64,000 nt of DNA from Niveispirillum cyanobacteriorum (GCF_002868735.1 NZ_CP025611.1:304501-368500), one strand, 5' to 3'; shown: positions 12,121 to 35,122, numbered from the stretch's first letter. The notes: generated by a model not told the origin, from the letters alone. A program made the numbers and translations.

Positions 12121-14145
12121 TCAGATCACCGCTGCGATGCCCGTGAACAGCTCTGTCCAGGCACTGCCCTGCCGGTAGAACAGTGGCGGCTTGCCCAGCG
12201 GTGCATCCACCGTCACCGCTCGCCCACCGACATGTAGGTTGCCGGTCCAGACCTCCACCCAATCGGTCCCCGCGGGAAGATAGGTGCTCCACCGGTCCAC
12301 GCCCGGTTGAATGACCGGGGCAACCAGAAGATCGGCACCATAGAGATAACTTTCCTGAAGTGCGTAAGTGGCGGGATCATCGGGGAAATGCAGGAACAAC
12401 GGCCGCTGCACCGGTAGGCCCGTCGCCACCGCCTCATCCGATAGCGCTCGCAGATAAGGTGCCATATGGGCATAGAGACGGGTCATGCGGGCGAAATGCG
12501 CCAGGACCTGTTCATCCTCGTCGATCTGCACATTCTCACGCGGGCGGTTGCCTTCATGACCGCGCATCACGGCGGTAAAGGCGGCCATTTCGGACCAGCG
12601 CATGATCAGTTCCGGTGTGCGGACATTACCGAACAGGCTGGTGTAACCTCCGATATCGCTGTGATGATAGGCATTGCCCAGCAAGCCCGATGACAGGGCC
12701 GCCGTGATGACGGTACCGATCCCGTCATGTCGGCTGAAATCCACCGACTGGTCGCCTGCCCACAGCAGCGGGCAATGGCGCTGCACCCCGCTATAGCCGG
12801 CGCGCATGAAGAACAAGGCCTCCCCCGTCCGGCCCCGGCTTTCCACGGCACGGGCATTCACCTCTGCCCACAGGACCGGCCAGGCATTGTGGGCCAGCAT
12901 GCCGGGCGTGCCGTCGTGCAGCCGGACATCGGTCGGCAGATACTCCCCGAAATCCGCCATCCAGCCGGACAGGCCAAAATCCAGCATGTTCTGGCCGATC
13001 ACGCGTTCGGCGAACCATGCGGCAGCGGCCGGGTTGGTGAAATCCACCACGCCGCAATCGAACTCCCCGAAATCGACCGTATAGGTCTCGTCGCTCTCCA
13101 GCTTCTTTGCCAGATATCCGGCGGCCTCCGCTTCGGGGAAAAAGCTGCCATCAACGCAGAGATAGGGGTTCACATAGCCCAGGAAGCGGATGCCGCGGTC
13201 ATGCAGTTCCTTGATCTTCGTATCCAGGTCCGGATAGCGCGTGGCGTTCCATTTCCAGTCCCAGAACAGGCGGCTGCCGAAGCTGGTGATGCGAAGCCCC
13301 ACCCAATCCTCGCACCATAGGCCCGACAGGGCGGCCCCGGATGCCGCATATTTTTCCAGCCGGTCAAAGCTCGTTGCCCCGTCCTTCAGGCCGATGATGG
13401 CACCCTTCAGCACCCAGTCGGGCAAAGGCGGCTGCCGCCCGAACCGGTCGGACAGGGCCGTGACCAGATCGGTGAAGGCATCACGGGCCCAAAGCTCGAT
13501 GGTGGCCGGTGCCGCCCAGATCTCCAGCTCATGCCAGCCTTCCTGGCGGAAATCGAAGGCACTGTAGGCCGTCGTGTCGATATGCAGGGCGTAGCGGCGG
13601 GAGGAGAGGTAGGTGGGCTGCGGGTAGTTGGTCTTGTAGTAGTCGCCGCCGGCCTTTCCCTTCTGGTCGGACTGGAAGGTCAGCAGGGTGGATTTGTCGC
13701 GGCCCACCCCAGGCTCCGACGTCCAAAGGGGGAAACGGCGGCCGCGCATGTCGAAATAGGAGAGCTGTTCACCCCCGCCCCAGACATGCTCACCCTTGTC
13801 TGCCACCACGCGCAGCCAAAGGCGGTTGAGCGTGGGGTCGATGGCGTCGATGTGGATACGGGCATCCTGTGCGCCACCGGACAGGGTCAGGGTGACCAGG
13901 GGCGGCAGGGCAGGGGCGATGGACAGGGCGATGCGGGCGCTGCCGTCGCTGACACGGGTCAGGGCCGCATAGCGCAGGCCCACCCGCTCCTCGACATTAT
14001 CCTCGATGTCGAAATGGCCATGATACATCTCCACACGAGGGGCACCCCGGCCGACATAGAGGCAGGGCGCGTCGGACCGCTGGCGCAGCATTGCGCGACC
14101 TGCCAAAATCAGGTCGAAGCCGCCATCCGTCTCAACCAATTGCAT
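12121..14145 (-). CDS. yihQ: Sulfoquinovosidase, GH31
   Basis: A 674-residue protein collinear with E. coli YihQ (678 aa), which hydrolyses alpha-sulfoquinovosides such as sulfoquinovosylglycerol to free SQ. The start at 14145 follows AGGGAAGGGA. The nucleophile D398 (WMADFGEYLP) and acid/base D465 (LWAGDQSVDFS) are 67 residues apart, as in E. coli. The sulfonate-binding residues known from characterised enzymes are present as K254, E279, R292, W295 and Y501, the K-E-R-W-Y form described for Agrobacterium SQase; E. coli has Q-Q-R-W-Y. Ordinary GH31 alpha-glucosidases lack this set, so the specificity is well supported. No signal peptide is seen, so it is probably cytoplasmic. It is divergent from the acyl-CoA ligase across an operator-like site at 14224-14235. 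Confidence 0.93.
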   Translation of the reverse strand: MQLVETDGGFDLILAGRAMLRQRSDAPCLYVGRGAPRVEMYHGHFDIEDNVEERVGLRYAALTRVSDGSARIALSIAPALPPLVTLTLSGGAQDARIHIDAIDPTLNRLWLRVVADKGEHVWGGGEQLSYFDMRGRRFPLWTSEPGVGRDKSTLLTFQSDQKGKAGGDYYKTNYPQPTYLSSRRYALHIDTTAYSAFDFRQEGWHELEIWAAPATIELWARDAFTDLVTALSDRFGRQPPLPDWVLKGAIIGLKDGATSFDRLEKYAASGAALSGLWCEDWVGLRITSFGSRLFWDWKWNATRYPDLDTKIKELHDRGIRFLGYVNPYLCVDGSFFPEAEAAGYLAKKLESDETYTVDFGEFDCGVVDFTNPAAAAWFAERVIGQNMLDFGLSGWMADFGEYLPTDVRLHDGTPGMLAHNAWPVLWAEVNARAVESRGRTGEALFFMRAGYSGVQRHCPLLWAGDQSVDFSRHDGIGTVITAALSSGLLGNAYHHSDIGGYTSLFGNVRTPELIMRWSEMAAFTAVMRGHEGNRPRENVQIDEDEQVLAHFARMTRLYAHMAPYLRALSDEAVATGLPVQRPLFLHFPDDPATYALQESYLYGADLLVAPVIQPGVDRWSTYLPAGTDWVEVWTGNLHVGGRAVTVDAPLGKPPLFYRQGSAWTELFTGIAAVI

Positions 14146-14216
14146 GTCGTTCCCTTCCCTCAATAAACCATGCGCGACCGGGTGCGCCCGGCGGCTGGCT
14201 TTCTATTTATCCGTAC

Positions 14217-14235
14217 TCTTATGTCTAATATAAGA
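14217..14235. promoter_or_regulatory. Degenerate GntR-type operator between yihQ and the acyl-CoA ligase gene
   Basis: TCTAATATAAGA (14224-14235) differs by one base from the TCTTATATAAGA palindrome found at other promoters of the locus. A further TCTTAT half-site begins at 14217. It is about 75-80 bp from each divergent start codon. Confidence 0.6.
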
Positions 14236-14308
14236 CTCAAGACATCGCCCTGTCCAGCCATCGGGTTGGGAATGAGAAAATGAGGGCGAAAAGCATAGGG
14301 AGAAACGC

Positions 14309-15937
14309 ATGTTCGGGCTGATGCAGGACTGGCCGCTGACCGTGAACCGGATCATCGATCATGCCGCGCGCTGGGATGGGGCACGACCCGTGGTTTCACG
14401 GCGGCTGGAGGTATCGGCGGACGGGGCCTTGTCCGTTGCGGATTATGCCAGCCTGCGTGCTCGTGCCCGCCGCGTTACCGCGGCCCTGCGCGGGTTGGGC
14501 GTGGGGTTGGGCGACCGTGTGGCGACGCTGGCCTGGAACAGCGACCGACATCTGGAGGCATGGTTTGCCATCATGGGCATGGGGGCTGTCTGCCACACGC
14601 TGAACCCGCGCCTGTTCAAGGATCAGCTGCGTTTCATCATCAACCATGCCGCCGACCGTGTGATCCTGGCCGATCCGGTCTTTGCCGGCTTAGTGGCGGA
14701 GCTGCTGCCCGATTGCCCGACGGTCACGCATGTAGTTCTGCTTTGCGGTGAAATGGATGTGGACCGCGCCGTGCTGCCAAATGCCATCGCCTATGAGGAT
14801 TGGATCGCCGCGCATGCTGATGACGGGCGCCCCTGGGGGGATTTCGATGAACGGCAGGCGGCGGCCCTTTGCTACACCTCCGGCACCACGGGCAATCCCA
14901 AGGGCGTGCTTTACTCCCACCGCTCTACCATGATCCATATGTGGATGACGTTGCAGCCTGATGTCATGGGGCTGTCGGTAAGCGACGTGGCCCTGCCCAT
15001 TGTTCCCATGTACCACGCCAATGCCTGGGGTATTCCTTTGTCCACGGCGGCGGTGGGGTGCAAGCTGGTGCTGCCGGGATCGCGGCTGGACCCGGCCTCG
15101 CTCTTGGACCTAATCCATGGTCAGGGGGTGACTTTCGCCGCCGCTGTACCCACTATCTGGCAGGCCATCATCCAGCATCTGGAACGCCATGGCGGCGATT
15201 TCGGGCCGCTGCGGCGCGTCATCATCGGCGGTGCCGCCTGTCCCGAAGCGGTCCTGCGCCGGCTGCATGATTACGGGGTGGAAGCGCGCCACGCCTGGGG
15301 CATGACCGAAACCTCCCCGATCGGCACGCATTTCAAGCTGGTGCCGGAACTGGCGGGGACTGGGTTTGAGGAACAGATGCCCTATCGCATTCGTCAGGGC
15401 CGCCCGCCGCTGGGCATCGATCTGGCCCTGCGCGGACAGGGCGGCTCCTTTCTGCCCCATGACGGTCAGCAGATGGGACGCCTGCAGGTGCGCGGCCCCG
15501 TGGTGGCTGGCAGCTATCTGCATGGCGATGGTGGGCAGGTACTGGACGTCGATGGCTGGTTCGATACGGGCGACATCGCCGATATCGATGGGTACGGCTT
15601 CATGCGCATCGCCGACCGCGCCAAGGATGTCATCAAGTCCGGCGGCGAATGGATCAGTTCGCTGGAGATCGAAAATATCGCCTCCAGCCATCCCAAGGCC
15701 GCCCTTTGCGCCGCCATTGCCATATCTGATCCCAAATGGGATGAACGCCCGCTGCTGGTGGTGCAGCTGAAGCCGGACACGGATGCCACGGCGGCGGAAT
15801 TCCTGGCGCATTTTCAGGGACGCCTCTCGAAATGGCAGATCCCCGACGATGTGATGTTCGTGCCCGCCATGCCGCTGGGTGCGACGGGCAAGATCGACAA
15901 GAAGGTATTGCGCGCCATGCTCGCCACTGCGCTCTGA
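14309..15937 (+). CDS. Medium/long-chain fatty acyl-CoA ligase (AMP-forming)
   Basis: A 542-residue ANL-superfamily enzyme that adenylates a carboxylic acid and transfers it to CoA. The AMP-binding loop [15 protein letters not shown] is at about residues 188-202. [27 protein letters not shown] and the C-terminal lid with [11 protein letters not shown] are also intact. The start at 14309 has AGGGAGAAA upstream. It is divergent from yihQ with an operator-like site between them. In a sulfoquinovose locus its natural role would be to activate fatty acids stripped from sulfoquinovosyl diacylglycerol; this is inference, and it could also act on other acids. Confidence 0.88.
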
Positions 15938-16005: not shown

Positions 16006-18312
16006 TCAGAAATTGACCCGGGCGGAGGCGCCGAAATAACGCTCGGAATCGCGCGGGGTGATCTGGCGCATGAAGGCGGTGCCGTTCGGAATACGCAGGA
16101 TCACATACTGCTTGTCGGTGATATTCTTGGCGATCAGTGACAGACGATACTTGTCATCGTCCGAGGTCCAGGCCAGGACCGCATCCCAGGTAGAATAACC
16201 GCTCTGGACCGCGTTGGGGTTCTGATTGATATCGAACCCCTGCTTGGACGTGAACTGTACCGTGTTCGACAGGTTCAGATCGCCGTTGGGCAGGTCGACC
16301 GGCAAACGCCAGTCGGCGGTGACGGAGCCCTTCCATTTGGCGGAGAAGGGCAGGGGCTTGCCGTTGATGGCGTCGGCACAGGTGGGGTTGGTGGTTGGGC
16401 ATTTGAACTTGTCGATGCGCGCCTTGGTATAGGAAACGCCGCCATTGAACTCCAGGTCGCGGCTGGCGGCCCAGGTAAAGTCGGCTTCCAGACCGCGGGT
16501 CGACACCGAACCGGCATTGGTCAGGCGGGTCACCACCTGTCCGGCCACCAGTTCCAGATTGTTGGCCTGATACCCGTCATAGACGGTCTTGAAGGCAGCA
16601 AGGTTGAGCATCAGGCCCGCCTCAGGGAAGCGGGTCTTCAGTCCGGCTTCATAGGCGTTGGACGTCTCTTCCGAGATGGGCAGCGTGTCAGTGCCAATCA
16701 TGTTGAAGAAGACATTCAGCGCCGGGCCTTTATAGCCACGGGTATATGTCGCATAGCCGATGATGTCGTCGGCGAAATCATACTGGAGGCCGGCATTGCC
16801 GGAGATGCCATCCTGCTTGGTGGTGCCAGTGGCGGTAAAGGCGGGACGCACACCCGGGAAAGCCGCGGTGGAGGTGGATCGGCGGGCGAAGTCGAAGGAG
16901 ACCTTATCCTCGGTATAGCGCCCGCCCAGAATGGCGCGGAAATCATCCGTGAAGTTGACCGTCGCCTGACCGAAAGCCGCATAGTTCTTCAGCTTGGTCG
17001 TGAAATCGGCATTGCCTTCATTGGTGGTGAAGGTTGATGCGCCGGCACGGCAAGGCAGCAATCCGTTCACCGCCGCCAGGGTGGTCGCGGTACAGGCCGT
17101 GACGGTACGGTTGAAGAAGTCCACTTCCTTTGTGGTGTAGTAGTAAACGCCGGCAACGTAATCGATGAAGTTCTGACCCGTAGACGCGATGCGCAGTTCC
17201 TGCGTGAACTGATCAAAGCTAAGGTCGCCCCGGTCGTGGGAGCGCACATCGCTGGCCGCCGCACCGGTGGCGACGTAAAGCGGGGCGTCGGAACGGAAGT
17301 CACCGTCGCGCTGCTGATAGTTGTACCAGTGACGGTAGGCGGTGATGGAGGTGATGGCCGCCGTGCCCAGGTCGATATCGGCCTGCAAGGAGACACCTGA
17401 ATTCTTGTCCCGCGTCTTGGGGTCCAGATCGTTGTCGATATCCTTGTTCTTGGCACCCGGCGTCAGCGGGGCTAGCGACGGCTTGAAAATCTGGTCCTGA
17501 TAGGCGCCGGGGAAAACCGTGCCGATGCTGTCGGCATAGCCATTGTCATTGCCCTTGGCATAGTCGGCGATGGCCGTGAAGGTCACATTCTCCGTGGCAT
17601 CCAGCACCAGCTTCATGCGTGCGCCGTAACGTTCATAACCGTTGACGTCATGGCCATTGAACACATTCTTGCCGTTTCCATCGAAATGGCTGAAGAAACC
17701 CGTGACTAGGCCGGACAGCTTGTCCGACAGGGGGCCGGAGACGCCGGCCTTCAGGCGGTACTCGTTGCCCTCATAATATGAGGCTTCGGCAAAGCCCTTA
17801 GGCGTGGAGGAGGGGGAGCGGGTGGTGATGTTCACCACACCGGCCGACGCATTCTTACCGAAGATCGAGCCCTGCGGACCGCGCAGCACTTCAACCCGTT
17901 CCAGGTCCAGGAAGTCTGCCGTCTGCTGACCCGCGCGGGCATAGACTACGCCGTCAATGACGGTCGATACCGACGGCTCCACACCCGACGCGAAGGAGAT
18001 TGTGCCCACACCACGGATGGAGATGGCGCTGTCCTTGTTAGTGTTGCCCTTGCGGAAGGTGATGGTCGGTACGCGCTGGAACAGTTGTTCTGCGGAGTTA
18101 ATGTTGGCCTGTTCCAGCTGGTCGCCGGTCACGACACTGATGGCGACGGGCACGTCCTGCAGGTTCTGGACGCGCTTCTGGGCCGTAACGATGATTTCTT
18201 CCAGAAGAAAGCCACCATCGGCACTGTTCTGCGCAACGGCGGAGCCGGACAGGCCCATCACCGCCATGGCCGTGCCGGCCGCAAGCCGTCTCAGATGCTT
18301 TGCATGCTGCAT
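16006..18312 (-). CDS. TonB-dependent outer-membrane receptor of the SQ locus
   Basis: A 768-residue TonB-dependent receptor. The start at 18312 has GGAGGAA upstream and gives a clean signal peptide (MQHAKHLRRLAAGTAMAVMG, cleavage after SAVAQ). The TonB box LLEEIIVTAQKR, a plug domain (about residues 45-160, DVPVAISVVTGDQLEQ, RGPQGSIFGKNASAGVVNI) and a beta-barrel ending in Phe (ASARVNF) follow. It belongs to the FecA/CirA-like group that in alphaproteobacteria often imports carbohydrates or small glycosides. It shares a bidirectional promoter region, with a perfect TCTTATATAAGA site, with the sulfolactaldehyde dehydrogenase candidate. It therefore probably brings SQ-glycerides across the outer membrane. 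Confidence 0.88.
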   Translation of the reverse strand: MQHAKHLRRLAAGTAMAVMGLSGSAVAQNSADGGFLLEEIIVTAQKRVQNLQDVPVAISVVTGDQLEQANINSAEQLFQRVPTITFRKGNTNKDSAISIRGVGTISFASGVEPSVSTVIDGVVYARAGQQTADFLDLERVEVLRGPQGSIFGKNASAGVVNITTRSPSSTPKGFAEASYYEGNEYRLKAGVSGPLSDKLSGLVTGFFSHFDGNGKNVFNGHDVNGYERYGARMKLVLDATENVTFTAIADYAKGNDNGYADSIGTVFPGAYQDQIFKPSLAPLTPGAKNKDIDNDLDPKTRDKNSGVSLQADIDLGTAAITSITAYRHWYNYQQRDGDFRSDAPLYVATGAAASDVRSHDRGDLSFDQFTQELRIASTGQNFIDYVAGVYYYTTKEVDFFNRTVTACTATTLAAVNGLLPCRAGASTFTTNEGNADFTTKLKNYAAFGQATVNFTDDFRAILGGRYTEDKVSFDFARRSTSTAAFPGVRPAFTATGTTKQDGISGNAGLQYDFADDIIGYATYTRGYKGPALNVFFNMIGTDTLPISEETSNAYEAGLKTRFPEAGLMLNLAAFKTVYDGYQANNLELVAGQVVTRLTNAGSVSTRGLEADFTWAASRDLEFNGGVSYTKARIDKFKCPTTNPTCADAINGKPLPFSAKWKGSVTADWRLPVDLPNGDLNLSNTVQFTSKQGFDINQNPNAVQSGYSTWDAVLAWTSDDDKYRLSLIAKNITDKQYVILRIPNGTAFMRQITPRDSERYFGASARVNF

Positions 18313-18402
18313 GTCATTTCCTCCCTGTTCAATTGTCGGCTCCCCTTGTTGGCGGGGTTGCATCATTCCTACCGCATGGTCTTGGGTAAGACAAGAGTTG
18401 TA

Positions 18403-18414
18403 TCTTATATAAGA
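18403..18414. promoter_or_regulatory. GntR-type operator, perfect palindrome TCTTATATAAGA
   Basis: It lies between the divergent TonB receptor (91 bp) and aldehyde dehydrogenase (75 bp) start codons. It is identical to the sites at 29910 and 30042. Confidence 0.75.
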
Positions 18415-18488
18415 GTTAGAATAGATACTCGTCCAGCCCGAATATGGGGCGCTGCGACGCCCGCCACACGGAAGAAGGAAGACCGGAG

Positions 18489-19940
18489 ATGCCGATGTCC
18501 CACCCGCTGCTGCGCCAGCAATGCCTCATCAATGGCGTCTGGCAGGATGCCATGGATGGCGCCACAATCGCTGTTTCCAATCCATCAACAGGTGATGTGC
18601 TGGGATCAATACCGCGTGCTGGCCGGGCGGAGACGAAGGCTGCGATCGACGCGGCCCACCGTGCCTTTCTGGACTGGCGGACCTGGACGGCGGCGGACCG
18701 CGCCAATCTGATGATGAAGCTTCATGATGCCATTCTGGCCGACAAGGCCGAACTGGGCCGCCTGCTGACCCTGGAAATGGGTAAGCCGCTGGCCGAGGCC
18801 GTGGGGGAAGTGACATTGGGTGCCGCCTATATCCGCTGGTTCGCGGAAGAGGCGCGGCGCGTCTATGGCGATGTCATTCCGTCCCCTTGGAAGAACCGCC
18901 GCCTGCTGGCTGTGCGTGAACCGGTGGGGGTGGTGGGGGCCATCACGCCCTGGAACTTCCCCAACAGCATGATTGCGCGCAAGCTGGGGGCGGCGCTGGC
19001 GGCGGGCTGCACCATGGTGGTGAAGCCCGCAACCCAGACGCCCTATTCCGCCTTGGCCATCGGGGTGCTTGCGGAACAGGTGGGGTTCCCGCCGGGCGTG
19101 CTGAACATCGTTACCGGATCGGCGGCGGAGATCGCGGCGGAAATGTGCGAGAATCCACTGCTGCGCAAAATCACCTTCACCGGCTCCACGTCGGTCGGCA
19201 AGGCGCTGGCGGCCAAGGCCATGGCGCACATGAAGCGGGTCTCCATGGAACTGGGCGGTAATGCGCCCTTCATCGTGTTCGACGATGCAGACTTGGATGC
19301 CGCTGTGGCCGGCGCCATGCTGGCCAAGTTCCGCAATACTGGCCAGACCTGCGTCTGCGCCAATCGCATCCTGGTCCAGTCCGGTATCCATGATGCCTTT
19401 GTGGAACGCATGGCGACGGCTGTGTCGGCCATGAAGGTCGGTGACGGGCTTCAGGATGGGGTGGTGCAGGGGCCCTTGATCGACATGGCGGGCGTTCGCA
19501 AGATTGAGGAACATATCGCCGACGCCGTCGCCAAGGGCGCGCGCGTGGTGACGGGTGGTGCGCGGCACGCCCTGGGCGGCAGCTTCTTCCAGCCGACCTT
19601 GATCACCGGTGCGACATCCGACATGGCAGTTGCGCGCGATGAAACCTTCGCCCCGCTAGCCCCCATCTTCCAGTTTGAGACGGAGGCCGATGCCTTGCGC
19701 ATGGCAAACGACACCGAATACGGTCTGGCGTCCTATGTCTACACACGGGACCTCGGCCGCGCGTTCAGAATTATGGAGGGGCTGGATTACGGTCTGGTCG
19801 GCATCAATGAGGGACTGATAACGACAGAAGTGGCACCCTTTGGCGGGCATAAGGAATCCGGTGTTGGCGTGGAGGGTTCCCGGCACGGCATCGATGATTA
19901 CACGACGTTGAAATATGCCTGCATCGGAGGGTTGGGTTAA
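18489..19940 (+). CDS. Aldehyde dehydrogenase of the GabD type, candidate sulfolactaldehyde dehydrogenase
   Basis: A 483-residue NAD(P)-dependent dehydrogenase. The start at 18489 is preceded by AGAAGGAAG. Landmarks are ITPWNFPNSMIARKLGAALA, FTGSTSVGKALA, MELGGNAPFIVF with the general-base Glu and NTGQTCVCANR with the catalytic Cys; the second Cys two residues on is usual in succinate-semialdehyde dehydrogenases. In the sulfo-Entner-Doudoroff pathway of Pseudomonas putida SQ1 a GabD-like enzyme converts 3-sulfolactaldehyde to sulfolactate. The shared operator and position within the SQ locus make that the best assignment here. A plain succinate-semialdehyde role cannot be excluded by sequence alone. 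Confidence 0.82.
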   Translation: MPMSHPLLRQQCLINGVWQDAMDGATIAVSNPSTGDVLGSIPRAGRAETKAAIDAAHRAFLDWRTWTAADRANLMMKLHDAILADKAELGRLLTLEMGKPLAEAVGEVTLGAAYIRWFAEEARRVYGDVIPSPWKNRRLLAVREPVGVVGAITPWNFPNSMIARKLGAALAAGCTMVVKPATQTPYSALAIGVLAEQVGFPPGVLNIVTGSAAEIAAEMCENPLLRKITFTGSTSVGKALAAKAMAHMKRVSMELGGNAPFIVFDDADLDAAVAGAMLAKFRNTGQTCVCANRILVQSGIHDAFVERMATAVSAMKVGDGLQDGVVQGPLIDMAGVRKIEEHIADAVAKGARVVTGGARHALGGSFFQPTLITGATSDMAVARDETFAPLAPIFQFETEADALRMANDTEYGLASYVYTRDLGRAFRIMEGLDYGLVGINEGLITTEVAPFGGHKESGVGVEGSRHGIDDYTTLKYACIGGLG

Positions 19941-20025
19941 AATCGCGGTGGCGTGGCAGGCTATGGAGCACTTCGCCCCGCCACCGGTCCCAAAACCCTT
20001 GATGAAATCCTTCAGAACTGTTTTA

Positions 20026-20037
20026 TCTTATATAAGT
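20026..20037. promoter_or_regulatory. GntR-type operator (one mismatch) upstream of the GntR gene
   Basis: TCTTATATAAGT is 33 bp upstream of the GntR start codon, consistent with autoregulation. Confidence 0.7.
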
Positions 20038-20069
20038 CTCACCGATGCAGCACAGGATGCCTCCACCGC

Positions 20070-27388: not shown

Positions 27389-28390
27389 TTAGACTAATCC
27401 CAAAATCTCCGCATGCAGGGCCGCCGGGATGGTCACCCCGTCTGCCGCCGCCTTCCGTCGCAGTGCCAGCCTTCTGTCGCCCGGCAACCGAGCCGGAGCC
27501 TCACCGGCCACCGTCAGCAGCAGGTGCGCCATTTGGTCGGCATAGCCGTCACCACCGAAACGGGCTGGGTCCAGCACGATCAACAACTGCCCCAGGTCCG
27601 GCGGGCCGCCATGACCATCAAAGAATCCGCTGGCGTTCCAGCCGAAATTGCCGCCGACCAACGCCGCACAGATCACTTCGATCATCAAGGCCAGGGCGGC
27701 ACCCTTGGCACCGCCGATGGGCAGAAGCGAGCCACCCAGCGCCGCGTTGGCATCCGTGGTCGGGTTGCCATCGGCATCCAGGGCCCAGCCTTCGGGGATG
27801 GGTTTGCCGGCCTTCGACGCCGCCATGATCTTGCCGCGTGCCGCCACCGACAGGGCCATGTCGATGACCAGCGGCGCGCGGCCCGGCAGGGGCGCGGCAA
27901 AGGCGATGGGGTTAGTACCCATCAGCGACCGCCGCCCGCCCGGCAGGGCCATGGCCGCCGGTGTATTCGCAAACGCGAAGGCTACCAGCCCCTGTTCGGC
28001 CAACCGTTCGACATGCCGCCCCGCCTGTCCGAAATGGTGGGACCGGTGGATGGCGGCCGCCGCGACGCCGGTCCTCGCCACCAGCGTCAACAGCCGTTCA
28101 ATGGCCAGATCCACGGCGGGATAGGCGAAACCATGGCCCGCATCAATGCGGACCCCAGCTTCCCCCGCCGTGACGGCGGCAGGCACGGCATTGCCATCCA
28201 CCTTTCCGGCCCGCGCATGCAGCGTGTAGGAGGGTACGCGGGACATGCCGTGCCCGGCCTGTCCATCCACCTCCGCCGCCACCAGTGCGGAGGCCGTGGC
28301 CGCCGCACTGGCCGGGGCGACGCCGGCCTTGACCAGCGCCCCCATGGCCAGAAGGTGTGCTTCTTCCAGGCTGAGCGTGACCGTGCTCAT
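27389..28390 (-). CDS. comC: Malate/L-lactate dehydrogenase family, ComC-like (R)-sulfolactate dehydrogenase
   Basis: A 333-residue member of the LDH2/MDH family, which is unrelated to classical Rossmann lactate dehydrogenases. Family motifs are [14 protein letters not shown] near residue 42, the catalytic His in [23 protein letters not shown], and [14 protein letters not shown] with [13 protein letters not shown]. ComC enzymes interconvert sulfopyruvate and (R)-sulfolactate with NAD(P)H. Its ATG overlaps the suyB stop as ATGA. Together with the SlcC-like gene it would invert (S)-sulfolactate into the (R)-form that SuyAB cleaves. Confidence 0.85.
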
Positions 28391-29562
28391 GCCGACCTGT
28401 ACAGCTTGGTCATGACGAACTCCTTGTGCCCCAGGGCTTCCGCCGCTGTCAGGCGACCGTTGGAGGTTCGGGCGATCATGTCGATCAAGGTGTCGCCCGC
28501 CTGATCGATGGTCATATCACGACGCACGATGCCGGACACGTCCACGTCCACATGCTCGCTCATCAACCGGACGGTACGCGGGTTACCGGTGATCTTGATG
28601 ACGGGCATGATCGGGTTGCCGATGACATTGCCCTGGCCCGTGGGGAAGCAATGGACGACATAACCGGCGGCCGCCTGCAAGGTACAGCATTCAGCAGCGG
28701 CGGATGACGTGTCCATGAAGTAGAGACCCGGCCCCTTGGCCGGCGCTTCCGCCGGTTCCAGCACGTCGATATAGCTGGTCTTCTTGCCGATCTTCTCCAG
28801 GTTGCCCAGGGCCTTTTCCTCGATCGTCGTCAGGCCGCCGGCGATGTTGCCCTTGGTTGGCTGGCTGTCGGACAGGTCGGAGGTCTTGTGCGCCTCGATC
28901 ACGTCATCCTGATAGGATTGCCAGGTCTTCATGAATTTGGCGGCCACTTCCGGGCTGGCGGCGCGGGCGGCGGCCAGATGTTCGGCCCCCGTCAGTTCCG
29001 ACGTTTCGCCGAAGCAGCCATAAAGGCCCAGTTCCACCATCTTGTCATACATGTTGCCGACGGTGGGGCAGGAGGCCAGACCCGTGGTCGTGTCGCTCTC
29101 CCCGCACTTGGCCGCCACCCACACCTCTGACAGCGGGCATTCGGTGCGGACAAGTTCAGAGGCCCATTGCGAGAATTCCTTCGCCTTGCGGCTGGCGGCG
29201 GCGACGGTGGCGATATCGCCATTACCTTCGATCCAGAATCCGGCGACCGGCTTGCCCGTGGCGGCGATGCCGTCCACCACCTTCTGGGTCCAGCCCTCCT
29301 CAATCCCGATCACGATACAGGCCGCGACATTGGGATTGGCGCCTGTGCCGATGATGGTGCGGAAATGCAGGTCCAGGTCGGCGCCGAACTGCAACCTTCC
29401 ATAGGAATGGGGCAGGGCGATGGTACCCTGGATATGGGCGGCCACGGCCTCGCACGCTGCGTTGGAAATATCGTCCAGCGGCAGGATGGCGACATGGTTG
29501 CGCACGCCGACGCGGCCATTCTCGCGGCGGTAGCCCCAGATCTTCAGATCAGCATAGTTCAT
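28387..29562 (-). CDS. suyB: (R)-sulfolactate sulfo-lyase, large subunit
   Basis: A 391-residue protein of the UxaA/altronate-dehydratase large-domain family, beginning [20 protein letters not shown], the conserved start of that domain. Cysteines in [20 protein letters not shown] and [30 protein letters not shown] are candidates for the iron site. SuyB pairs with the small SAF-domain SuyA to split sulfolactate into pyruvate and sulfite. The separate small and large subunits, the length of about 390 and the neighbours (SlcC-, ComC- and YeiH-like) match SuyAB and not sugar-acid dehydratases, which have uronate genes nearby. Confidence 0.88.
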
Positions 29563-29575: not shown

Positions 29576-29863
29576 TTACCAGCGCTTGGTTTTCAGATTG
29601 TGGGTATGGACATGGGCGCCCTTGGCGATGGGCTGCACCACCTTGCCGATATCCTCGCCATACTTGATGACGGTATCGCCGACTGCGAAATCGCGCAGCG
29701 CCACCTTGTGTCCGATCTGCACGTCCTGGTTCACGGTCGCGCGGAACTCGCTGTTATCCTCGGTCACGACGCACAGCATGTCGGTGCCGGCTTTCAACCC
29801 TTCCACAACGACGACGCCGACATTGTCGCGCCGGTCATGGATCAGAAGATGTGGTGCGCCCAC
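29576..29863 (-). CDS. suyA: (R)-sulfolactate sulfo-lyase, small SAF-domain subunit
   Basis: A 95-residue SAF/UxaA N-terminal domain protein ([59 protein letters not shown]). The final HVHTHN motif is the family hallmark and probably contributes metal or substrate ligands. It starts with GTG at 29863, preceded by GGGGAGG. It is the first gene of an eight-gene operon. A perfect 14-bp palindrome GTCTTATATAAGAC lies about 46 nt upstream of the start codon and should control the whole operon. Confidence 0.88.
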
Positions 29864-29908: not shown

Positions 29909-29922
29909 GTCTTATATAAGAC
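29909..29922. promoter_or_regulatory. GntR-type operator of the suyA operon
   Basis: GTCTTATATAAGAC is the longest perfect version of the palindrome (14 bp). It lies in the 199-bp divergent region between suyA and the dehydratase operon, 132 bp from the second site at 30042-30053. Confidence 0.78.
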
Positions 29923-30041
29923 ACATAAGCTCACAACGTTCGGCGCTTGGCAAGATGGGTTTTTGATGATTTTCAGGAATGGCGGTATTCCGCCGATTTT
30001 CGCATTGACTTTGCCCTGGAAAGCGTCCCATCTGTCATTGG

Positions 30042-30053
30042 TCTTATATAAGA
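30042..30053. promoter_or_regulatory. GntR-type operator of the sulfo-ED operon
   Basis: TCTTATATAAGA ends only 9 nt upstream of the dehydratase start codon, so a bound repressor would block the transcription start or the start of translation directly. Confidence 0.75.
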
Positions 30054-30062
30054 GCTGGTGAC

Positions 30063-31805
30063 ATGACCAACCCGCCATCCGACCCGAAACGCCCCTTACG
30101 CAGCGCCCGCTGGTTTGCGTCTCCCGATATGCGCGGCTTCGCGCACCGGCAGCGGACGCAGCAGATGGGGCTGCGGCGGGAAGAGTTCATGGACCGCCCG
30201 GTGATCGCCATCGTGAATACCTGGAGCGAGATGAGCCCCTGTCACATCCATCTGCGGGATGTGGCTGAGGCCGTGAAGCGCGGGGTGCTGCGGGCCGGTG
30301 GCTATCCGGTGGAACTGCCGGCCTTGAGTGTGGGGGAGGTGATGGTGAAACCCACCACCATGCTCTACCGCAACTTCCTGGCCATGGAGGTGGAGGAGCT
30401 TCTGCGCTCCCACCCCATTGACGGGGCGGTGCTGCTGGGCGGGTGCGACAAGTCCACGCCGGGGCTGCTGATGGGGGCGATCAGTGCAGGGCTGCCGGCC
30501 ATCTATTGCCCAGCTGGCCCCATGGCCAATGGGCAATGGCGCGGGATCAAGACGGGGGCGGGTACCCACACCAAGAAATATTGGGATGAGCTGCGGGCGG
30601 GAAACATCACGCCGGCGGATTGGCTCGACCTGGAATCGCGGATGACGCGGTCCATTGGCACCTGCAACACCATGGGTACGGCATCGACCATGACGGGCAT
30701 CGCCGACGCCATGGGCATGACCCTGCCGGGCGCCTCATCCATCCCCGCGGTCGATAGCGGCCATCGCCGCATGGCCTCGCTCTGCGGCGAACGCATTGTA
30801 GCGATGGTGGATGAGGATCTGACGCCGCAGAAAATCCTGACCCGCGCTGCCTTCCTGAATGGTGTGGTCGCCTACATGGCGTTGGGCGGATCGACCAATG
30901 CCGCCGTGCATATGATGGCAATGGCGGGCCGGGCCGGTGTGGCACTGTCGCTGGATGATCTGGCCGCCGTCGCCAAACGCATCCCTGTCTGCGCCAATCT
31001 GTTTCCTTCAGGCAACGCGTTGATGGAGGATTTCTTCTTCGCGGGCGGCATGCGGGCGCTCTTGTGGAAGCTGCGGGACCACCTGTCGCTGGATTGCCTG
31101 ACGGTGACGGGCCGCACCCTCGGGCAGGAGATTGCGGACGCCGAATGTTACGATGATGATGTCATCCGCGACGCGTCCAACCCCGTCGTGCCGCTGGAAC
31201 GCGGGGCCACCTTGGCGCTGCTGCGCGGTAATCTCTGCCCCGACGGGGCGGTAATGAAATCATCTGCCGCCGATCCGCGCCTGTTGCGCCATACAGGCCG
31301 GGCCATCGTCTTCGACAGCAATCAGCAGATGCTGGCCGCCATCGATGATCCGGCCTTGGATGTCGATGCCGACAGTGTCATCATCTTGCGCAATGGCGGG
31401 CCGGTGGGCGCACCCGGCATGCCGGAATGGGGCAATCTGCCCATCCCGAAAAAGCTGCTGGCCCAAGGCGTGCGCGACATGGTTCGCATTTCCGATGCCC
31501 GCATGTCGGGCACCCACTATGGTGCCTGCATCGTGCACGCGGCACCGGAGGCGGCAGTGGGCGGCCCCCTGGCATTGGTTCAGACAGGTGACATGATCCG
31601 GTTGGATGCCGTGGCCGGCACGCTCGACATGCTGGTGGACGATGACGAACTGGCCCGCCGCCGTGCCGCCTGGACCCCACCCGTGAACCGCTATGAACGC
31701 TCCTACGCGGCCCTGTACAAGGCACATGTGACCCAGGCGCCGCAGGGCTGCGACTTCGATTTCCTGGCCGGCACCGCCACGGTGCCGGAACCGCCGATCT
31801 ATTGA
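30063..31805 (+). CDS. IlvD/Edd-family dehydratase, candidate 6-deoxy-6-sulfogluconate dehydratase
   Basis: A 580-residue Fe-S dehydratase. The Fe-S cysteines C128 (LLGGCDKSTPG) and C201 (SIGTCNTMGTAST) and the C-terminal ISDARMSGTHYGACIVH motif are intact. Its RSARWFASPDMRGFAHRQR start resembles sugar-acid dehydratases (arabinonate/xylonate type) and not biosynthetic IlvD. In the sulfo-Entner-Doudoroff pathway such an enzyme converts sulfogluconate to 2-keto-3-deoxy-6-sulfogluconate. It heads a five-gene operon with aldolase, epimerase, lactonase and dehydrogenase, and its operator is shared with suyA and the other SQ genes. The ribosome-binding site is weak. Confidence 0.85.
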   Translation: MTNPPSDPKRPLRSARWFASPDMRGFAHRQRTQQMGLRREEFMDRPVIAIVNTWSEMSPCHIHLRDVAEAVKRGVLRAGGYPVELPALSVGEVMVKPTTMLYRNFLAMEVEELLRSHPIDGAVLLGGCDKSTPGLLMGAISAGLPAIYCPAGPMANGQWRGIKTGAGTHTKKYWDELRAGNITPADWLDLESRMTRSIGTCNTMGTASTMTGIADAMGMTLPGASSIPAVDSGHRRMASLCGERIVAMVDEDLTPQKILTRAAFLNGVVAYMALGGSTNAAVHMMAMAGRAGVALSLDDLAAVAKRIPVCANLFPSGNALMEDFFFAGGMRALLWKLRDHLSLDCLTVTGRTLGQEIADAECYDDDVIRDASNPVVPLERGATLALLRGNLCPDGAVMKSSAADPRLLRHTGRAIVFDSNQQMLAAIDDPALDVDADSVIILRNGGPVGAPGMPEWGNLPIPKKLLAQGVRDMVRISDARMSGTHYGACIVHAAPEAAVGGPLALVQTGDMIRLDAVAGTLDMLVDDDELARRRAAWTPPVNRYERSYAALYKAHVTQAPQGCDFDFLAGTATVPEPPIY

Positions 31806-31813
31806 GGGACCTG

Positions 31814-32617
31814 ATGCACGAACCCCTGAACCCGCTGAAGCGGCAATTGGCCGATACGTCCCGCCTGCTAACGGGTACCTGGCTGATGTCGGGCGCGCCC
31901 AGCACGGCGGAAGCGATGGGCCATTGCGGCTTCGACTTCCTGGTCGTGGATATGGAGCATGTGCCCATCGAGATGCCGGATCTGGCCAATCTGCTGCGCG
32001 CCATCGAATGCACGCCGGCGCAAGCTATCGTGCGGCTGGCCTGGAACGATCAGGTGCTGGTGAAGCGGGTGATGGATGCCGGTGCCCGCACCGTGATGCT
32101 GCCCTTTGTGGAGACTGTGGAGGAGGCGCGGACCGCCGTTTCCTACACCCGCTATCCGCCCGATGGGGTGCGCGGGGTGGCGGCGGTGCATCGCGGGTCA
32201 CGCTATGGCCGTGTGCCCGACTATCTGAAGCGCGCCAATGACGAGGTAGCGGTCATCGTGCAACTGGAAACGCCAGGTGCCGTCTCCCGTGTGTCGGAGA
32301 TCGCCGCCGTGCCCGGTGTCGACGCCCTGTTCCTGGGGCCGGGCGATCTGTCGGCCTCCATGGGCATGATCGGGCAGGTCGGTCACGAGGCGGTCCAGGC
32401 CAAGATCGCCGAAGCCGCAGCCTTGGCCAAACAGGCGGGCAAGCCGATCGGCATTGTCGGGCCCAACCCGGAGATGGTGGGGCGCTTCGTTGGTTACGGC
32501 TACAGCTTCGTCGCCGTCGCATCCGATATCGCCATGATGACGGGCCGCGCCGTTGAATGGCAGGCGACCCTGCGCGGACAGGCGCCGGCGGTACCGGTCA
32601 TCACAGGTCCGTACTGA
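31814..32617 (+). CDS. HpcH/HpaI aldolase, candidate 2-keto-3-deoxy-6-sulfogluconate aldolase
   Basis: A 267-residue class II (metal-dependent) aldolase. The start at 31814 has GAGGGA 4 nt upstream. Family motifs are GTWLMSGAPSTAEAMGHCG, FLVVDMEHVPIE, VRLAWNDQVLVKRVMDAGA, metal ligands in VQLETPGAV and FLGPGDLSASMG, and GIVGPNPEMV. HpcH-type aldolases split 2-keto-3-deoxy acids into pyruvate and an aldehyde; in the sulfo-ED route the products are pyruvate and 3-sulfolactaldehyde. It begins 8 nt after the dehydratase stop. Confidence 0.86.
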   Translation: MHEPLNPLKRQLADTSRLLTGTWLMSGAPSTAEAMGHCGFDFLVVDMEHVPIEMPDLANLLRAIECTPAQAIVRLAWNDQVLVKRVMDAGARTVMLPFVETVEEARTAVSYTRYPPDGVRGVAAVHRGSRYGRVPDYLKRANDEVAVIVQLETPGAVSRVSEIAAVPGVDALFLGPGDLSASMGMIGQVGHEAVQAKIAEAAALAKQAGKPIGIVGPNPEMVGRFVGYGYSFVAVASDIAMMTGRAVEWQATLRGQAPAVPVITGPY

Positions 32618-32619
32618 CC

Positions 32620-33507
32620 ATGGCGGCGATCATCACTCTGGCGGCGGGCGGCATGCGGGCGGAAGTGGCGCCCGCCATCGGTGGTGCGCTGCTGTCGCTG
32701 TCGCGTGATGGTGCCGATATCATGCGGCCCACGCCTGCCGATGCCGTGGCGACCGGGCAGGTGCGGCGGACCGCCTGCTATCCCATGCTGCCCTATGCCA
32801 ACCGTATCGCCGATGGTCGTTTTCTGTTCGCCGGTCGCTGGCACCACGTCCCGCGCAACACGCCCGACATTAACCACCCGCTGCACGGGCTGGGCTGGCA
32901 GCGTGAATGGGTTGTGGATGAACAATCCGACACCCATGTCCACCTGCGTCTGTCATATCAGCCGGCAACAGTTGGGCAGGCCGACTGGCCCTATCCCTTT
33001 ACCGCGCGGATGGCGTACCGGCTGGACGATGCCAGCCTGGAAATCGGTCTGGACCTGACCAATGATAGTCAAGGCATGGCCCCGGCTGGCGCGGGCCTGC
33101 ACCCTTTCTTCCGGCGGGGTGCCGGAACGATGCTGCGCTTTTCGTCCCTGTCCCACTGGCGCAGTGGGGCCGATGGTTTGCCGGAAAAGGTCATCATGCC
33201 GCCGGACCCGGATTTCCGCCATGGCCGGCACCTGGATGACAGCGTCGTGGATGGCGACTTTCCCGGCTGGGCCGGCATCGCCCATATGACCGGATCAGTG
33301 CCCGGCCTGCTGGTCAGCCTGCGGGCAGACCGGATTTTTGGCACGTTGCGCGTCTATACCCCGGTGGGCCGTGACTTTTTCGCGGTGGAGCCGGTGACCC
33401 ACGGCGCCAATGCCCTGAACCAGCCCGAACTGCCCCCCATGACCATCCTGGCTCCTGGTGCCAGCCTGTCCGGGACCGTTCGCATCAATGCGGAGCCTTT
33501 GGCATGA
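32620..33507 (+). CDS. Aldose 1-epimerase family protein, candidate SQ mutarotase
   Basis: A 295-residue galactose-mutarotase-fold protein. Conserved elements are LPYANRIADGRF (substrate-binding Arg), NHPLHGLGWQ and GLHPFFRRG with the two catalytic histidines, and FFAVEPVTHGANAL with the catalytic Glu. Sulfoquinovose is released as the alpha-anomer and mutarotates slowly, and sulfoglycolysis loci often include such an enzyme. It starts 2 nt after the aldolase stop and overlaps the lactonase gene by 4 nt, so it belongs to the same translationally coupled operon. Confidence 0.85.
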   Translation: MAAIITLAAGGMRAEVAPAIGGALLSLSRDGADIMRPTPADAVATGQVRRTACYPMLPYANRIADGRFLFAGRWHHVPRNTPDINHPLHGLGWQREWVVDEQSDTHVHLRLSYQPATVGQADWPYPFTARMAYRLDDASLEIGLDLTNDSQGMAPAGAGLHPFFRRGAGTMLRFSSLSHWRSGADGLPEKVIMPPDPDFRHGRHLDDSVVDGDFPGWAGIAHMTGSVPGLLVSLRADRIFGTLRVYTPVGRDFFAVEPVTHGANALNQPELPPMTILAPGASLSGTVRINAEPLA

Positions 33508-34376
33508 GTGCATTCACCCCTGCGCTTCCCCTGCGTACCCGGTTGGGGGAATGCCCCGTCTGGGACGGGGGGGCGGGCATCCTGTCCTTCGTCGATATTC
33601 AGGGACGGCAGCTTCATCGCTATCACCCTGCCGATGGAGCATTGTCCAGCCTGGAGCTTCCCGAACATCCCGGTTGTGTCGTGCCGCTTGCCGGTGGCGG
33701 TTATGTCGCCGGGATGCGGACGGGCATCTATCGGCTGGATGCGGATGGGACGGTGGGGCCGATGCTGGCGCCCAATCCGACCGATCCCGCCGATACCCGT
33801 TTCAATGATGGCCGTGTCGACCCGGCAGGGCACCTGATCATCGGCACCATTGATGAGCCGAAATCCGGTTCGCGCGGCGGTCTCTACCGTCTGGAAAGGG
33901 GCGGGCTGCGTCTGCTGCTCGGCGGCCTGTTGACCTCCAACGGGCTGGCCTTCTCCCCCGATGGGCGCACCCTCTACCATTCCGACACGCCACGTTTCGC
34001 CATCCATGCCTATGACTATGATCCGGCCAGCGGTCAGGTCGCCAACAGACGCTTGTTTGCACAGTTGGACCCTGATGCCCCAGACCGGGGCCGACCCGAC
34101 GGGGCGGCGGTGGATGCGGAAGGCTGTTACTGGACCGCCCTCTATGCGGGTGGGCGGGTGCAGCGCTATGATCCCGATGGGCGGTTGATGGCGGAATACC
34201 GTACCCCGGCCCGTTGCCCTACCATGCCGTGTTTCGGTGGACCGGACGCCAAGACCCTGTATGTCACCAGCGTCGCCGCCGGCTTTGAGGGGCCGATGGA
34301 TGGCGCGCTGTTCGCTATGCCGGTCGATGTTCCCGGCCTGCCCAATGCGCCCTGCAACCCGGAGAGCCTGCCATGA
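33504..34376 (+). CDS. SMP-30/gluconolactonase family, candidate sulfogluconolactonase
   Basis: A 290-residue six-bladed beta-propeller lactonase. Metal-site residues are recognisable: E16 in RLGECPVW, Asn in DTRFNDGRVDPAGH and TSNGLAFSPDGRTLYHSD, and Asp in PDGAAVDAEGCYWTALY. It hydrolyses a sugar lactone to the acid; the partner genes make 6-sulfogluconolactone the likely substrate. Its ATG overlaps the epimerase stop and its own stop overlaps the SDR start, both as ATGA. Confidence 0.88.
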   Translation: MSAFTPALPLRTRLGECPVWDGGAGILSFVDIQGRQLHRYHPADGALSSLELPEHPGCVVPLAGGGYVAGMRTGIYRLDADGTVGPMLAPNPTDPADTRFNDGRVDPAGHLIIGTIDEPKSGSRGGLYRLERGGLRLLLGGLLTSNGLAFSPDGRTLYHSDTPRFAIHAYDYDPASGQVANRRLFAQLDPDAPDRGRPDGAAVDAEGCYWTALYAGGRVQRYDPDGRLMAEYRTPARCPTMPCFGGPDAKTLYVTSVAAGFEGPMDGALFAMPVDVPGLPNAPCNPESLP

Positions 34377-35122
34377 ATGTGCGTTATCACAGCCTGGAGG
34401 GCCGTTCCATCCTTATCACCGGCGGCGCGTCCGGTATCGGTGGGGCGATGGTGGAGGCGTTCACGGTGCAGGGCGCACGGGTCAGCTTCATCGATATCGA
34501 CGCCAATGCTGGTGCGGCCATGGCTGACCGTACCGGCGCCCGTTTCGTGCCCTGCGACATCACCGATATCACGGCGTTGCGCGCCGCCATCGCCGATATT
34601 GAACAGGCCAGCGGCGGTATTGATGCCCTGATCAACAATGCCGGCAAGGATGACCGGCAGGTGGTTGGGGAGGTGGAACCCGAAAGCTGGCGCCGCATGC
34701 TGTCCTTGAACCTGGACCATCAGTTCTTTGCCAGCCAGGCCGCTGCCCCCGCCATGATGGCGCGCGGGCACGGGGCGATCATCATGCTGGGCAGCATCTC
34801 CTGGATGCGTGGGCGGCCCGGCATGGTCAGCTACACGACGTCAAAGGCCGCCATCAACGGCCTAACCCGGACGCTGGCCCGCGAATATGGGCCGGGTGGG
34901 GTGCGGGTGAACTGCATCGTGCCGGGGGCCATCCTGACCGATCGGCAGGCGGCCCTCTGGCTGACCCCGGAACTGAACCAGCAATTCATTGACCTGCAGG
35001 CCCTGAAATTCCGCCTGACGGCGGATCATGTAGCCCGCATGGCCCTGTTCCTGGCATCCGACGAGAGTGTCGGCTGCACCGGTGCCAACTTCATCGTCGA
35101 TGCAGGCCTGACGCAGAACTGA
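34373..35122 (+). CDS. Short-chain dehydrogenase, candidate sulfoquinovose dehydrogenase
   Basis: A 249-residue classical SDR. The NAD(P) motif is TGGASGIGGAMV (about residues 17-28), with NNAG near 87, and the active site comprises a Ser in LGSISW, Y154 and K158 (SYTTSKAAING). FIDIDAN after beta-2 carries an acidic residue and suggests NAD preference. In Pseudomonas putida SQ1 an SDR oxidises SQ to 6-sulfogluconolactone as the first sulfo-ED step. It is the last gene of the operon and is convergent with the AraC gene, 7 nt away. Confidence 0.87.
   Translation: MNVRYHSLEGRSILITGGASGIGGAMVEAFTVQGARVSFIDIDANAGAAMADRTGARFVPCDITDITALRAAIADIEQASGGIDALINNAGKDDRQVVGEVEPESWRRMLSLNLDHQFFASQAAAPAMMARGHGAIIMLGSISWMRGRPGMVSYTTSKAAINGLTRTLAREYGPGGVRVNCIVPGAILTDRQAALWLTPELNQQFIDLQALKFRLTADHVARMALFLASDESVGCTGANFIVDAGLTQN

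Follow-up and report, generated by a model that had tools for sequence, protein, structure and literature searches.

The 64,000-nucleotide stretch of the Niveispirillum cyanobacteriorum genome analysed here (GCF_002868735.1, NZ_CP025611.1:304501-368500; the window, with positions counted from its first letter) contains sulfosugar genes which very probably form a single regulon for the complete dissimilation of sulfoquinovose (SQ) glycosides. In this regulon a sulfo-Entner-Doudoroff (sulfo-ED) pathway would be joined to the sulfolactate sulfo-lyase SuyAB. The initial annotation, made from the sequence of the window, had placed the genes for a conversion of SQ glycosides to pyruvate and sulfite in one cluster of 23 kb (12121-35122). 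All genes named in it were present as open frames at these places with the expected family matches, every step found support at the sequence level, and the SQ-specific residues were kept in the sulfoquinovosidase (SQase) and the SQ dehydrogenase (SQDH). The cluster is somewhat wider than 12121-35122, as a major facilitator superfamily (MFS) carrier (10855-12078, minus strand, PF07690) follows the SQase gene on the same strand at a distance of 42 bp. Moreover, GlpK, GlpD, a second MFS carrier, a TonB-dependent receptor and a GntR regulator are also encoded inside 12121-35122.

The 199 bp gap between suyA and ilvD is the starting point of two divergent runs of genes, each on one strand. The rightward run (plus strand) has the order ilvD, hpcH, epimerase, SMP-30, SDR. 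Its aldose 1-epimerase-like protein (32557-33507, PF01263), the predicted SQ mutarotase, would equilibrate SQ, and the short-chain dehydrogenase/reductase (SDR; 34373-35122), the predicted NAD-dependent SQ 1-dehydrogenase, would convert it to sulfogluconolactone. The SMP-30 protein (33504-34376, PF08450), a predicted sulfogluconolactonase, would yield sulfogluconate, from which the IlvD/Edd dehydratase (30063-31805, PF00920; predicted sulfogluconate dehydratase) would form 2-keto-3,6-dideoxy-6-sulfogluconate (KDSG). The HpcH/HpaI aldolase (31802-32617, PF03328; predicted KDSG aldolase) would split KDSG into pyruvate and sulfolactaldehyde, which the GabD-type aldehyde dehydrogenase (18444-19940, plus strand), the predicted sulfolactaldehyde dehydrogenase, would oxidize to (S)-sulfolactate. 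The leftward run (minus strand) has the order suyA, suyB, comC, slcC, yeiH, MFS, glpK, glpD. The SlcC-like predicted (S)-sulfolactate dehydrogenase (26283-27209, PF02826) and the ComC-like predicted (R)-sulfolactate dehydrogenase (27389-28390, PF02615) would convert (S)-sulfolactate via sulfopyruvate to (R)-sulfolactate. SuyB (28387-29562, PF04295 and PF20629) and SuyA (29576-29863, 95 aa, SAF domain), the predicted large and small subunits of the sulfo-lyase, would cleave it to a second pyruvate and sulfite, and the SuyZ-like YeiH protein (25267-26286, PF03601 with 229 bits) would export sulfite or sulfate. Farther left of the suyA-ilvD gap lie the SQase and MFS carrier genes as well as a divergent TonB receptor/GabD pair with the GntR gene.

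These separated pieces have an operator-like palindrome in common. The palindrome GTCTTATATAAGAC precedes the SQase gene, the TonB receptor/GabD pair and the GntR gene and stands on both sides of the suyA-ilvD promoter. With up to three mismatches, six sites were found in the window: in the gap between SQase and acyl-CoA synthetase (14223-14236, one mismatch), in the divergent gap between the TonB receptor and GabD (18379-18392 with three mismatches and 18402-18415 with two), 31 bp before the probable GntR start codon at 20070 (20025-20038, two mismatches), upstream of suyA (29909-29922, exact) and 8 bp before the ilvD start (30041-30054, one mismatch). Only 0.20 sites were expected, and none of 100 shuffles reached six. 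With up to two mismatches the 6.05 Mb genome contains six sites, five of them within these 16 kb (the window site at 18379, with its three mismatches, lies outside this count); if the six were evenly spread, the Poisson probability of five or more falling here is about 8e-12. Because five of the six genome-wide sites lie in these 16 kb, the separated pieces look like one regulon, and the claim of one cluster, which the initial annotation had drawn from proximity, gains support from the common operator.

One of the sites adjoins the gene of a HutC-type GntR-family regulator (19953-20786, plus strand, probable start 20070, PF00392 and PF07702). This protein would act as a repressor that binds GTCTTATATAAGAC before the SQase gene, the TonB receptor/GabD pair, its own gene and the suyA-ilvD promoter, and both halves of the pathway would be induced together through it by a presumed inducer. 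The only other match to it in the genome at E<=1e-12 had 31% identity. The motif type itself is known: SdhR, a regulator of the HutC subfamily of GntR proteins, recognizes the palindrome TCTTATGTCTTATATAAGACATAAGA, which contains the core GTCTTATATAAGAC (PMC4494728). The likeness to SdhR concerns the palindrome only and does not imply orthology, and the window sites sit on sulfosugar genes. The literature search, within the accessible parts of the sources, found no report of such an operator on sulfosugar genes, and this use of the motif appears to be new.

Genome contigs were scanned for SQDH with a four-sequence alignment as the query. At least 598 stretches matched and at least 554 encode relatives, and the best 80 of these, from named genomes and with 10 kb flanks, constituted the SQDH locus set. 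SuyA and SuyB were both present in nine of the 80 loci (the tandem loci): the AAP38 contig L013, whose genome belongs to the same genus as the window, and loci from metagenome-assembled genomes (MAGs) of Gammaproteobacteria (two), Caulobacteraceae (two) and Proteobacteria (four). An SDR together with a dehydratase was found in 48 of the 80 loci, and all nine tandem loci were among these. HpcH, epimerase, ComC, IlvD, SDR, SuyA and SuyB were present in every tandem locus, SlcC and SMP-30 each in eight. Since SuyA, SuyB, ComC, IlvD, HpcH, epimerase and SDR recur jointly in these nine loci, chance is no serious alternative. The regulator recurred as well. Relatives with 60-71% identity to the GntR protein were found behind the SDR gene in L014, L019, L031, L037, L041 and L089, and relatives with 39-50% identity in suyAB regions of Methylobacterium and Paracoccus. 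The operator with up to two mismatches occurred in eight of the nine tandem loci versus nine of the other 71, and in 11 of the 13 loci with a GntR relative versus six of the 67 without (Fisher p 8e-8 over the 80 loci, a value that ignores relatedness). A separate observation concerns Marinomonas (L082, L085, L086, L090) and Balneatrix (L092), where sulfo-ED genes without SuyAB in the stretch covered are accompanied by a GntR relative of 39-41% identity and by operator copies with zero to two mismatches.

The association was also seen in two further genome sets. Within the genus, the orthologues of SQase, SuyB and SQDH occurred in the same three of 11 genomes. In a sample of 385 genomes of the class, SuyB (E<=1e-120) was found in 33 and an SDR with arginine at position 152 (R152-type; E<=1e-70) in nine, and both in seven, the window's genome included. 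SuyB was thus present in six of the eight other genomes with an R152-type SDR versus 26 of the remaining 376 (Fisher p 5e-6, relatedness ignored). Among the seven genomes with both, only the window's own (G000) and G103 have SuyB and the SDR on one contig; in G103 the two genes are 3.7 kb apart in a different gene order. The corresponding locus of G103 (L155, contig 56, 2648-8673) encodes SuyA, SuyB, SlcC, ComC, a dehydratase and an SQDH consecutively on the plus strand, and this linkage looks separately assembled, to judge from its SuyB, which groups with Methylobacterium. Another arrangement was observed in Acidocella facilis (L050, 2503-8801), where sulfo-ED genes stand with SlcC and ComC homologues and no SuyAB was present in the stretch. 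There, an operator copy adjoins the gene of a thiamine-pyrophosphate enzyme that belongs to the acetolactate synthase/Xsc superfamily but reaches the cut-off of none of the 25 NCBIfam models listed for it, and this locus possibly uses a different route of carbon-sulfur cleavage after sulfopyruvate.

The alternative that survives best, although it is improbable, is that two independent pathways are neighbours: a sulfo-ED pathway with exported sulfolactate, and an SlcC/ComC/SuyAB pathway for external sulfolactate or cysteate. Free-standing SuyAB is indeed common, as 26 of the 33 class genomes with SuyB (n=385) had no R152-type SDR at the cut-off, and the suyAB neighbourhoods of Cupriavidus, Methylobacterium and Paracoccus contained no sulfo-ED set (an IlvD/Edd gene stands at the far edge in Methylobacterium). 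In the SQDH tree, window and L013 group with Elstera (99/78), and the close rows L131 and L132 (L162, L163) have no SuyAB in 20 kb, save a partial match of 32% in L162. Against this stands the same operator, which is found at either side of the suyA-ilvD gap and also precedes the SQase gene and the GabD/TonB receptor pair. Moreover, GabD directly adjoins SlcC in L031 and L089, and the linkage repeats in nine of 80 loci, whose SuyB proteins fall into a single clade. In the tree of SuyB-type sequences, built without UxaA/GarD rows and with one gene entered under both labels L155 and L102, the window grouped with all nine tandem loci in one clade (support 100/99), and G103/L155 fell outside it with Methylobacterium. 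The SQDH tree did not unite the tandem loci, and five changes of the tandem label were needed. These changes, together with the grouping with Elstera, indicate that inheritance of the block as a unit did not hold throughout, and a single origin of the tandem arrangement was not retained given the disagreement of the two trees.

The single regulon for SQ glycosides is further supported by the residues of its predicted enzymes. The best match of the window SDR in the PDB was the P. putida SQ dehydrogenase (PpSQDH; 9gwu, 301 bits; next match 217 bits), with 59% overall identity to the crystallised protein. PpSQDH contacts SQ through Asp99, Arg101, Gln198 and Arg152, and through Arg154 via water, and its catalytic tetrad is Asn119-Ser147-Tyr160-Lys164 (PMC12133307). 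All nine residues (D99, R101, R152, R154, Q198, N119, S147, Y160, K164) are identical in the window SDR. Their distribution was surveyed in 102 loci, 80 from genome contigs and 22 from the class search. Over all 102, the tetrad as well as Asp99, Arg101 and Gln198 were invariant and hence do not discriminate, and position 154 was more variable (Met, Asn, Val, Ile, Gln, Leu, Thr among others). At position 152, the 80 genome-contig loci had Arg in 74 and Lys in four, with Asn in L088 and Leu in L091. Of the class loci, eight also had Arg (L131-L138, 53-77% identity), and fourteen had a residue other than Arg or Lys (L139-L152, 47-50% identity). The second SDR copy of the window's own genome (L152) belongs to these 47-50% paralogues without an R152 equivalent. 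Arg152 thus sets the window SDR apart from paralogues of about 50% identity. The SDRs of L134-L138 (G078, G263, G161, G370, G069) kept Arg152 at 53-57% identity to the window's; all these genomes have SuyB, on other contigs of the drafts, and the SDRs may be SQ dehydrogenases or, some of them, may act on another sulfosugar.

The lactonase, dehydratase and aldolase pointed in the same direction. The published family list for sulfo-ED includes SMP-30 lactonase, PF00920 dehydratase and PF03328 aldolase (PMC9594981), and all three families were found in the window. The window dehydratase is 70-76% identical to the dehydratases of Pseudomonas and Rhizobium sulfo-ED loci, and the aldolase 58-68% identical to those of Pseudomonas sp. 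BP8 and Rhizobium. The comparison loci come from strains other than P. putida SQ1 and R. leguminosarum SRDI565; in the Pseudomonas loci L071 and L073 the SQDH shares 92% and 90% identity, respectively, with the P. putida enzyme that was crystallised. The GabD protein, of the succinate-semialdehyde dehydrogenase type, scored 654.6 bits against TIGR01780 (cut-off 646.35) and has arginines at the two proposed sulfonate-binding places of the Rhizobium enzyme RlGabD, nine residues after the Trp of W-N-F and six before the catalytic Cys (positions placed by spacing from the description in PMC10599462), and its homologue adjoins SlcC in L031 and L089.

The SQase (12121-14163, minus strand, likely ATG near 14145), a member of GH31, matched NCBIfam PRK10426 with 926.7 bits (cut-off 553). 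Its best match in the PDB was 5ohy (1029 bits), and E. coli YihQ (5aed) scored 709 bits. In the alignment to 5aed the equivalents of D405, D472, R301, W304 and Y508 were all conserved; positions 405 and 472 we take to be the catalytic Asp pair, and R301, W304 and Y508 to belong to the pocket. These residues bear on a further alternative, that the substrate is sulfofucose or another sulfosugar, which we consider highly improbable. The sulfofucose pathway of Paracoccus likewise combines Entner-Doudoroff-type cleavage with SlcC/ComC/SuyAB and uses the same families save one step. That step is the dehydratase, which belongs to PF13378/PF02746 there (PMC12421959) and to PF00920 in the window operon. 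Moreover, the window encodes an SQase with YihQ-type residues and an SDR with the PpSQDH contacts, and the SQases of E. coli and Agrobacterium were inactive on a sulfofucoside (PMC12421959). The sulfofucose reading was set aside because of the dehydratase family and the SQase.

The sulfolactate arm resembled free-standing sulfolactate systems. The small SuyA frame lies directly upstream of suyB, and its product is 52-70% identical to those of the genes in the suyA position of L098-L100. To judge from the identity gap and the tree, the window SuyB is of the SuyB type and far from UxaA, GarD and altronate dehydratases; two other PF04295 proteins, encoded on other contigs of the genome, were too distant for the SuyB searches. 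On plasmids, SuyB matched 119 records, 13 with 60-80% identity and 106 below 60%. Among the 25 plasmid matches listed, 13 had 60-77% identity and the other 12 at most 39.4%; the former included Paracoccus, Cupriavidus pinatubonensis (beside hpsN/hpsO), Methylobacterium and Sinorhizobium mexicanum. Behind suyAB of Methylobacterium oryzae lie genes for homologues of SlcC (66%) and ComC (56%), and the gene behind suyB of Paracoccus versutus encodes an exporter that shares 50% identity with the window YeiH protein, the predicted outlet for sulfite or sulfate. A sulfite dehydrogenase for the released sulfite has been reported for Paracoccus and Cupriavidus (PMC9594981).

For uptake, the TonB-dependent receptor (16006-18366, minus strand, PF00593 and PF07715), a candidate for outer-membrane uptake of sulfosugar glycosides, and the MFS carrier behind the SQase, a candidate inner-membrane importer of SQ or SQ-glycerol, would together bring in SQ-glycerol. 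The SQase would split it into SQ and glycerol, and GlpK (22356-23858, minus strand; PRK00047, 728.5 bits, cut-off 498) and the GlpD-like glycerol-3-phosphate dehydrogenase (20788-22311, minus strand, start approximate in an open frame to 22788; PRK12266, 277.5 bits, under the cut-off of 360) would consume the glycerol. Relatives of the MFS carrier with 43-59% identity occurred in five of the nine tandem loci (L014, L019, L031, L037, L089), adjoining the SQase gene in L019 and L089. Relatives of the TonB receptor (37-46%) occurred in L019, L037 and L014, where the copy is cut by the contig end, and in L019 and L037 an operator lies at most 250 bp upstream of the receptor frame. The matches listed in the literature search included no paper linking TonB receptors to SQ. 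By a crude regular-expression motif search, no ATP-binding cassette (ABC) ATPase was recognized in the window or in the nine tandem loci; among the remaining 71 SQDH loci, 36 had one or more.

An acyl-CoA synthetase gene (14309-15937, plus strand), whose membership in the cluster is uncertain, diverges from the SQase gene across the operator site at 14223. Matches to it at E<=1e-150 were found in exactly those three of 11 genus genomes that have the SQase and in none of the nine tandem loci (10 kb flanks, some contigs short). An extension to a whole-sulfolipid programme is conceivable, although rather doubtful. SQ-glycerol or lyso-sulfolipid would enter through the TonB receptor, the acyl-CoA synthetase (perhaps with the esterase encoded at 36074-37033) would use the acyl chains, GlpK and GlpD would consume the glycerol, and the two halves of the sugar would fall to sulfo-ED and SuyAB together. 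The HutC-type regulator, found also beside free-standing suyAB clusters, would tie the desulfonation arm to sulfo-ED. If this were true, the sulfur of sulfoquinovosyl diacylglycerol would be returned as sulfite without a partner bacterium, and uptake would be based on TonB and MFS proteins, not on ABC transporters.

Several results weigh against a single regulon for SQ glycosides. Genome-wide, a backward control pattern gave five matches per strand versus six for the operator; because this control is nearly as frequent, only the clustering of GTCTTATATAAGAC is unusual. The tandem locus L014 had a three-mismatch operator only, and L155 had none. Among the nine tandem loci, MFS1 was found in five, SQase in four, GabD and GlpD in three each, GlpK in one, the YeiH exporter only in L013 of the same genus and the TonB receptor (at least 38% identity) in two and partly in a third, counts that are lower bounds given 10 kb flanks and several short or early-ending contigs; the SQase and GabD of L013, for instance, lay outside its flank and were found in L156 and L157. 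The SAF domain of SuyA scored 23.1 bits, barely above the cut-off of 21, the best NCBIfam match of ComC, L-sulfolactate dehydrogenase, reached 194.5 bits (cut-off 500), and the YeiH protein stayed below the cut-off of TIGR00698. No SorA-like sulfite dehydrogenase was recognized genome-wide by PF00174, whose matches were MsrP and a 409-aa protein with no other Pfam match (SoeABC was not searched for). The failure of the SQDH tree to group the tandem loci belongs here as well. Within the PDB set, the GabD protein was nearer to succinate-semialdehyde dehydrogenase 3jz4 (633 bits) than to RlGabD 8c54 (583 bits), and 3jz4 shares its arginines, which are thus non-discriminating for sulfolactaldehyde. 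Finally, NCBIfam labelled the dehydratase as L-arabinonate dehydratase (907.8 bits, cut-off 882) and ranked the SDR nearest to D-xylose dehydrogenase, under the cut-off. The dehydratase label is no argument against sulfogluconate, because a Rhizobium sulfo-ED dehydratase also passes this model (914.7 bits) and a Pseudomonas one nearly does (880.7 bits). A pathway for a neutral pentose or hexose that has sulfonate genes of unrelated function as neighbours, as these labels would have it, is the least credible alternative, since the Rhizobium enzyme carries the same label and the sulfonate arginine R152 of the SDR is missing from the paralogues of about 50% identity, the genome's second copy included, and the pentose reading was rejected on these grounds.

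Compared with known systems, the cluster shares the SDR, SMP-30, PF00920, PF03328, GabD-type dehydrogenase and SQase with sulfo-ED of P. putida SQ1 and R. leguminosarum SRDI565. The published versions have exported sulfolactate as their end product (PMC9594981, PMC12133307) or, in Vibrio, 2,3-dihydroxypropanesulfonate (PMC13372026), whereas the window cluster includes SuyAB-SlcC-ComC; ABC transporters have been implicated in uptake for these versions (PMC12421959), unlike the window with its negative motif search. The contrast to P. putida SQ1 drawn by the initial annotation was right, but SuyAB-extended routes have already been described for other sulfosugar pathways (PMC9594981, PMC12421959, PMC11465081). 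The tandem sulfofucolytic pathway of Paracoccus wurundjeri likewise combines cleavage of the Entner-Doudoroff type with SlcC/ComC/SuyAB in one bacterium, but it acts on sulfofucose with another dehydratase family and an ABC transporter, and neither a sulfosugar glycosidase nor a GabD/SlaB homologue was found in it (PMC12421959). Extended sulfoglycolytic transaldolase (sulfo-TAL) clusters of Thermotogae and Chloroflexi unite an SQ route and SuyAB in one cluster, but in other phyla and by a transaldolase via sulfofructose instead of an Entner-Doudoroff route (PMC9594981). GH188 clusters of Actinobacteria, similar to the sulfo-Embden-Meyerhof-Parnas (sulfo-EMP) type, combine an SQ-type pathway with a sulfolactate sulfo-lyase, but have sulfofructose kinase and isomerase, an aldolase in one of two and a GH188 SQase, and are predictions only (PMC11465081). 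The SlcC/ComC/SuyAB systems of Chromohalobacter, Paracoccus and Cupriavidus import sulfolactate, whereas for the window its intracellular formation from SQ is predicted; the window SuyB is 68-77% identical to the homologues of Cupriavidus, Paracoccus and Methylobacterium. Selected genomes linked to 13C-labelled taxa have been screened for SuyAB/SlcC/ComC, with an SQ monooxygenase (SMO) pathway predicted for Novosphingobium and sulfo-ED clusters without an obvious lactonase noted for Elstera (PMC13372026); L017, L162 and L163 had no SMP-30 match, consistent with this remark. A sulfo-ED locus with SuyAB for SQ was not found in the literature search, which drew on partial texts and did not cover subscription papers. 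The novelty would thus lie in the junction of sulfo-ED with a sulfolactate sulfo-lyase, in the TonB/MFS uptake candidates and in one predicted operator, and not in new chemistry.

Further features were observed in and around the cluster. The second MFS carrier is encoded at 23893-25224 (minus strand). The comC-slcC gap contains a 121-bp dispersed palindromic element (27253-27373) with 32-nt arms that are 94% complementary; its arm had 68 genome-wide matches with up to two mismatches (29 forward, 39 reverse; backward control none), frequently in inverted pairs with a spacing of about 96 bp. Adjoining the SQase block, 6442-10850 encodes another GlpD-like oxidoreductase, an FAD oxidase of the GlcD type and another FGGY (glycerol-kinase-like) protein, a gene set also found in G010. 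Directly past an AraC gene, 36074-43095 encodes a hormone-sensitive-lipase-type esterase, a second TonB receptor, a prolyl oligopeptidase and an amidase; the last three (37194-43095), with no operator there, were dropped as candidate members.

SQ is an abundant sulfur sugar of plants and algae. It is produced at about 10 billion tonnes a year (PMC12890257, PMC10755693). The aerobic sulfo-ED route of its breakdown is usually portrayed as the work of two organisms, in which sulfolactate is passed to a second bacterium. Sulfoglycolysis combined with biomineralisation in one bacterium has been called unusual, one example being an unresolved case in Klebsiella (PMC12421959, mBio 2025). The recurrent locus and its predicted regulator make single-organism SQ mineralisation by the sulfo-ED route testable, and the combination of SQDH, SuyAB and the operator would provide a marker for genomes otherwise scored as sulfolactate excreters.

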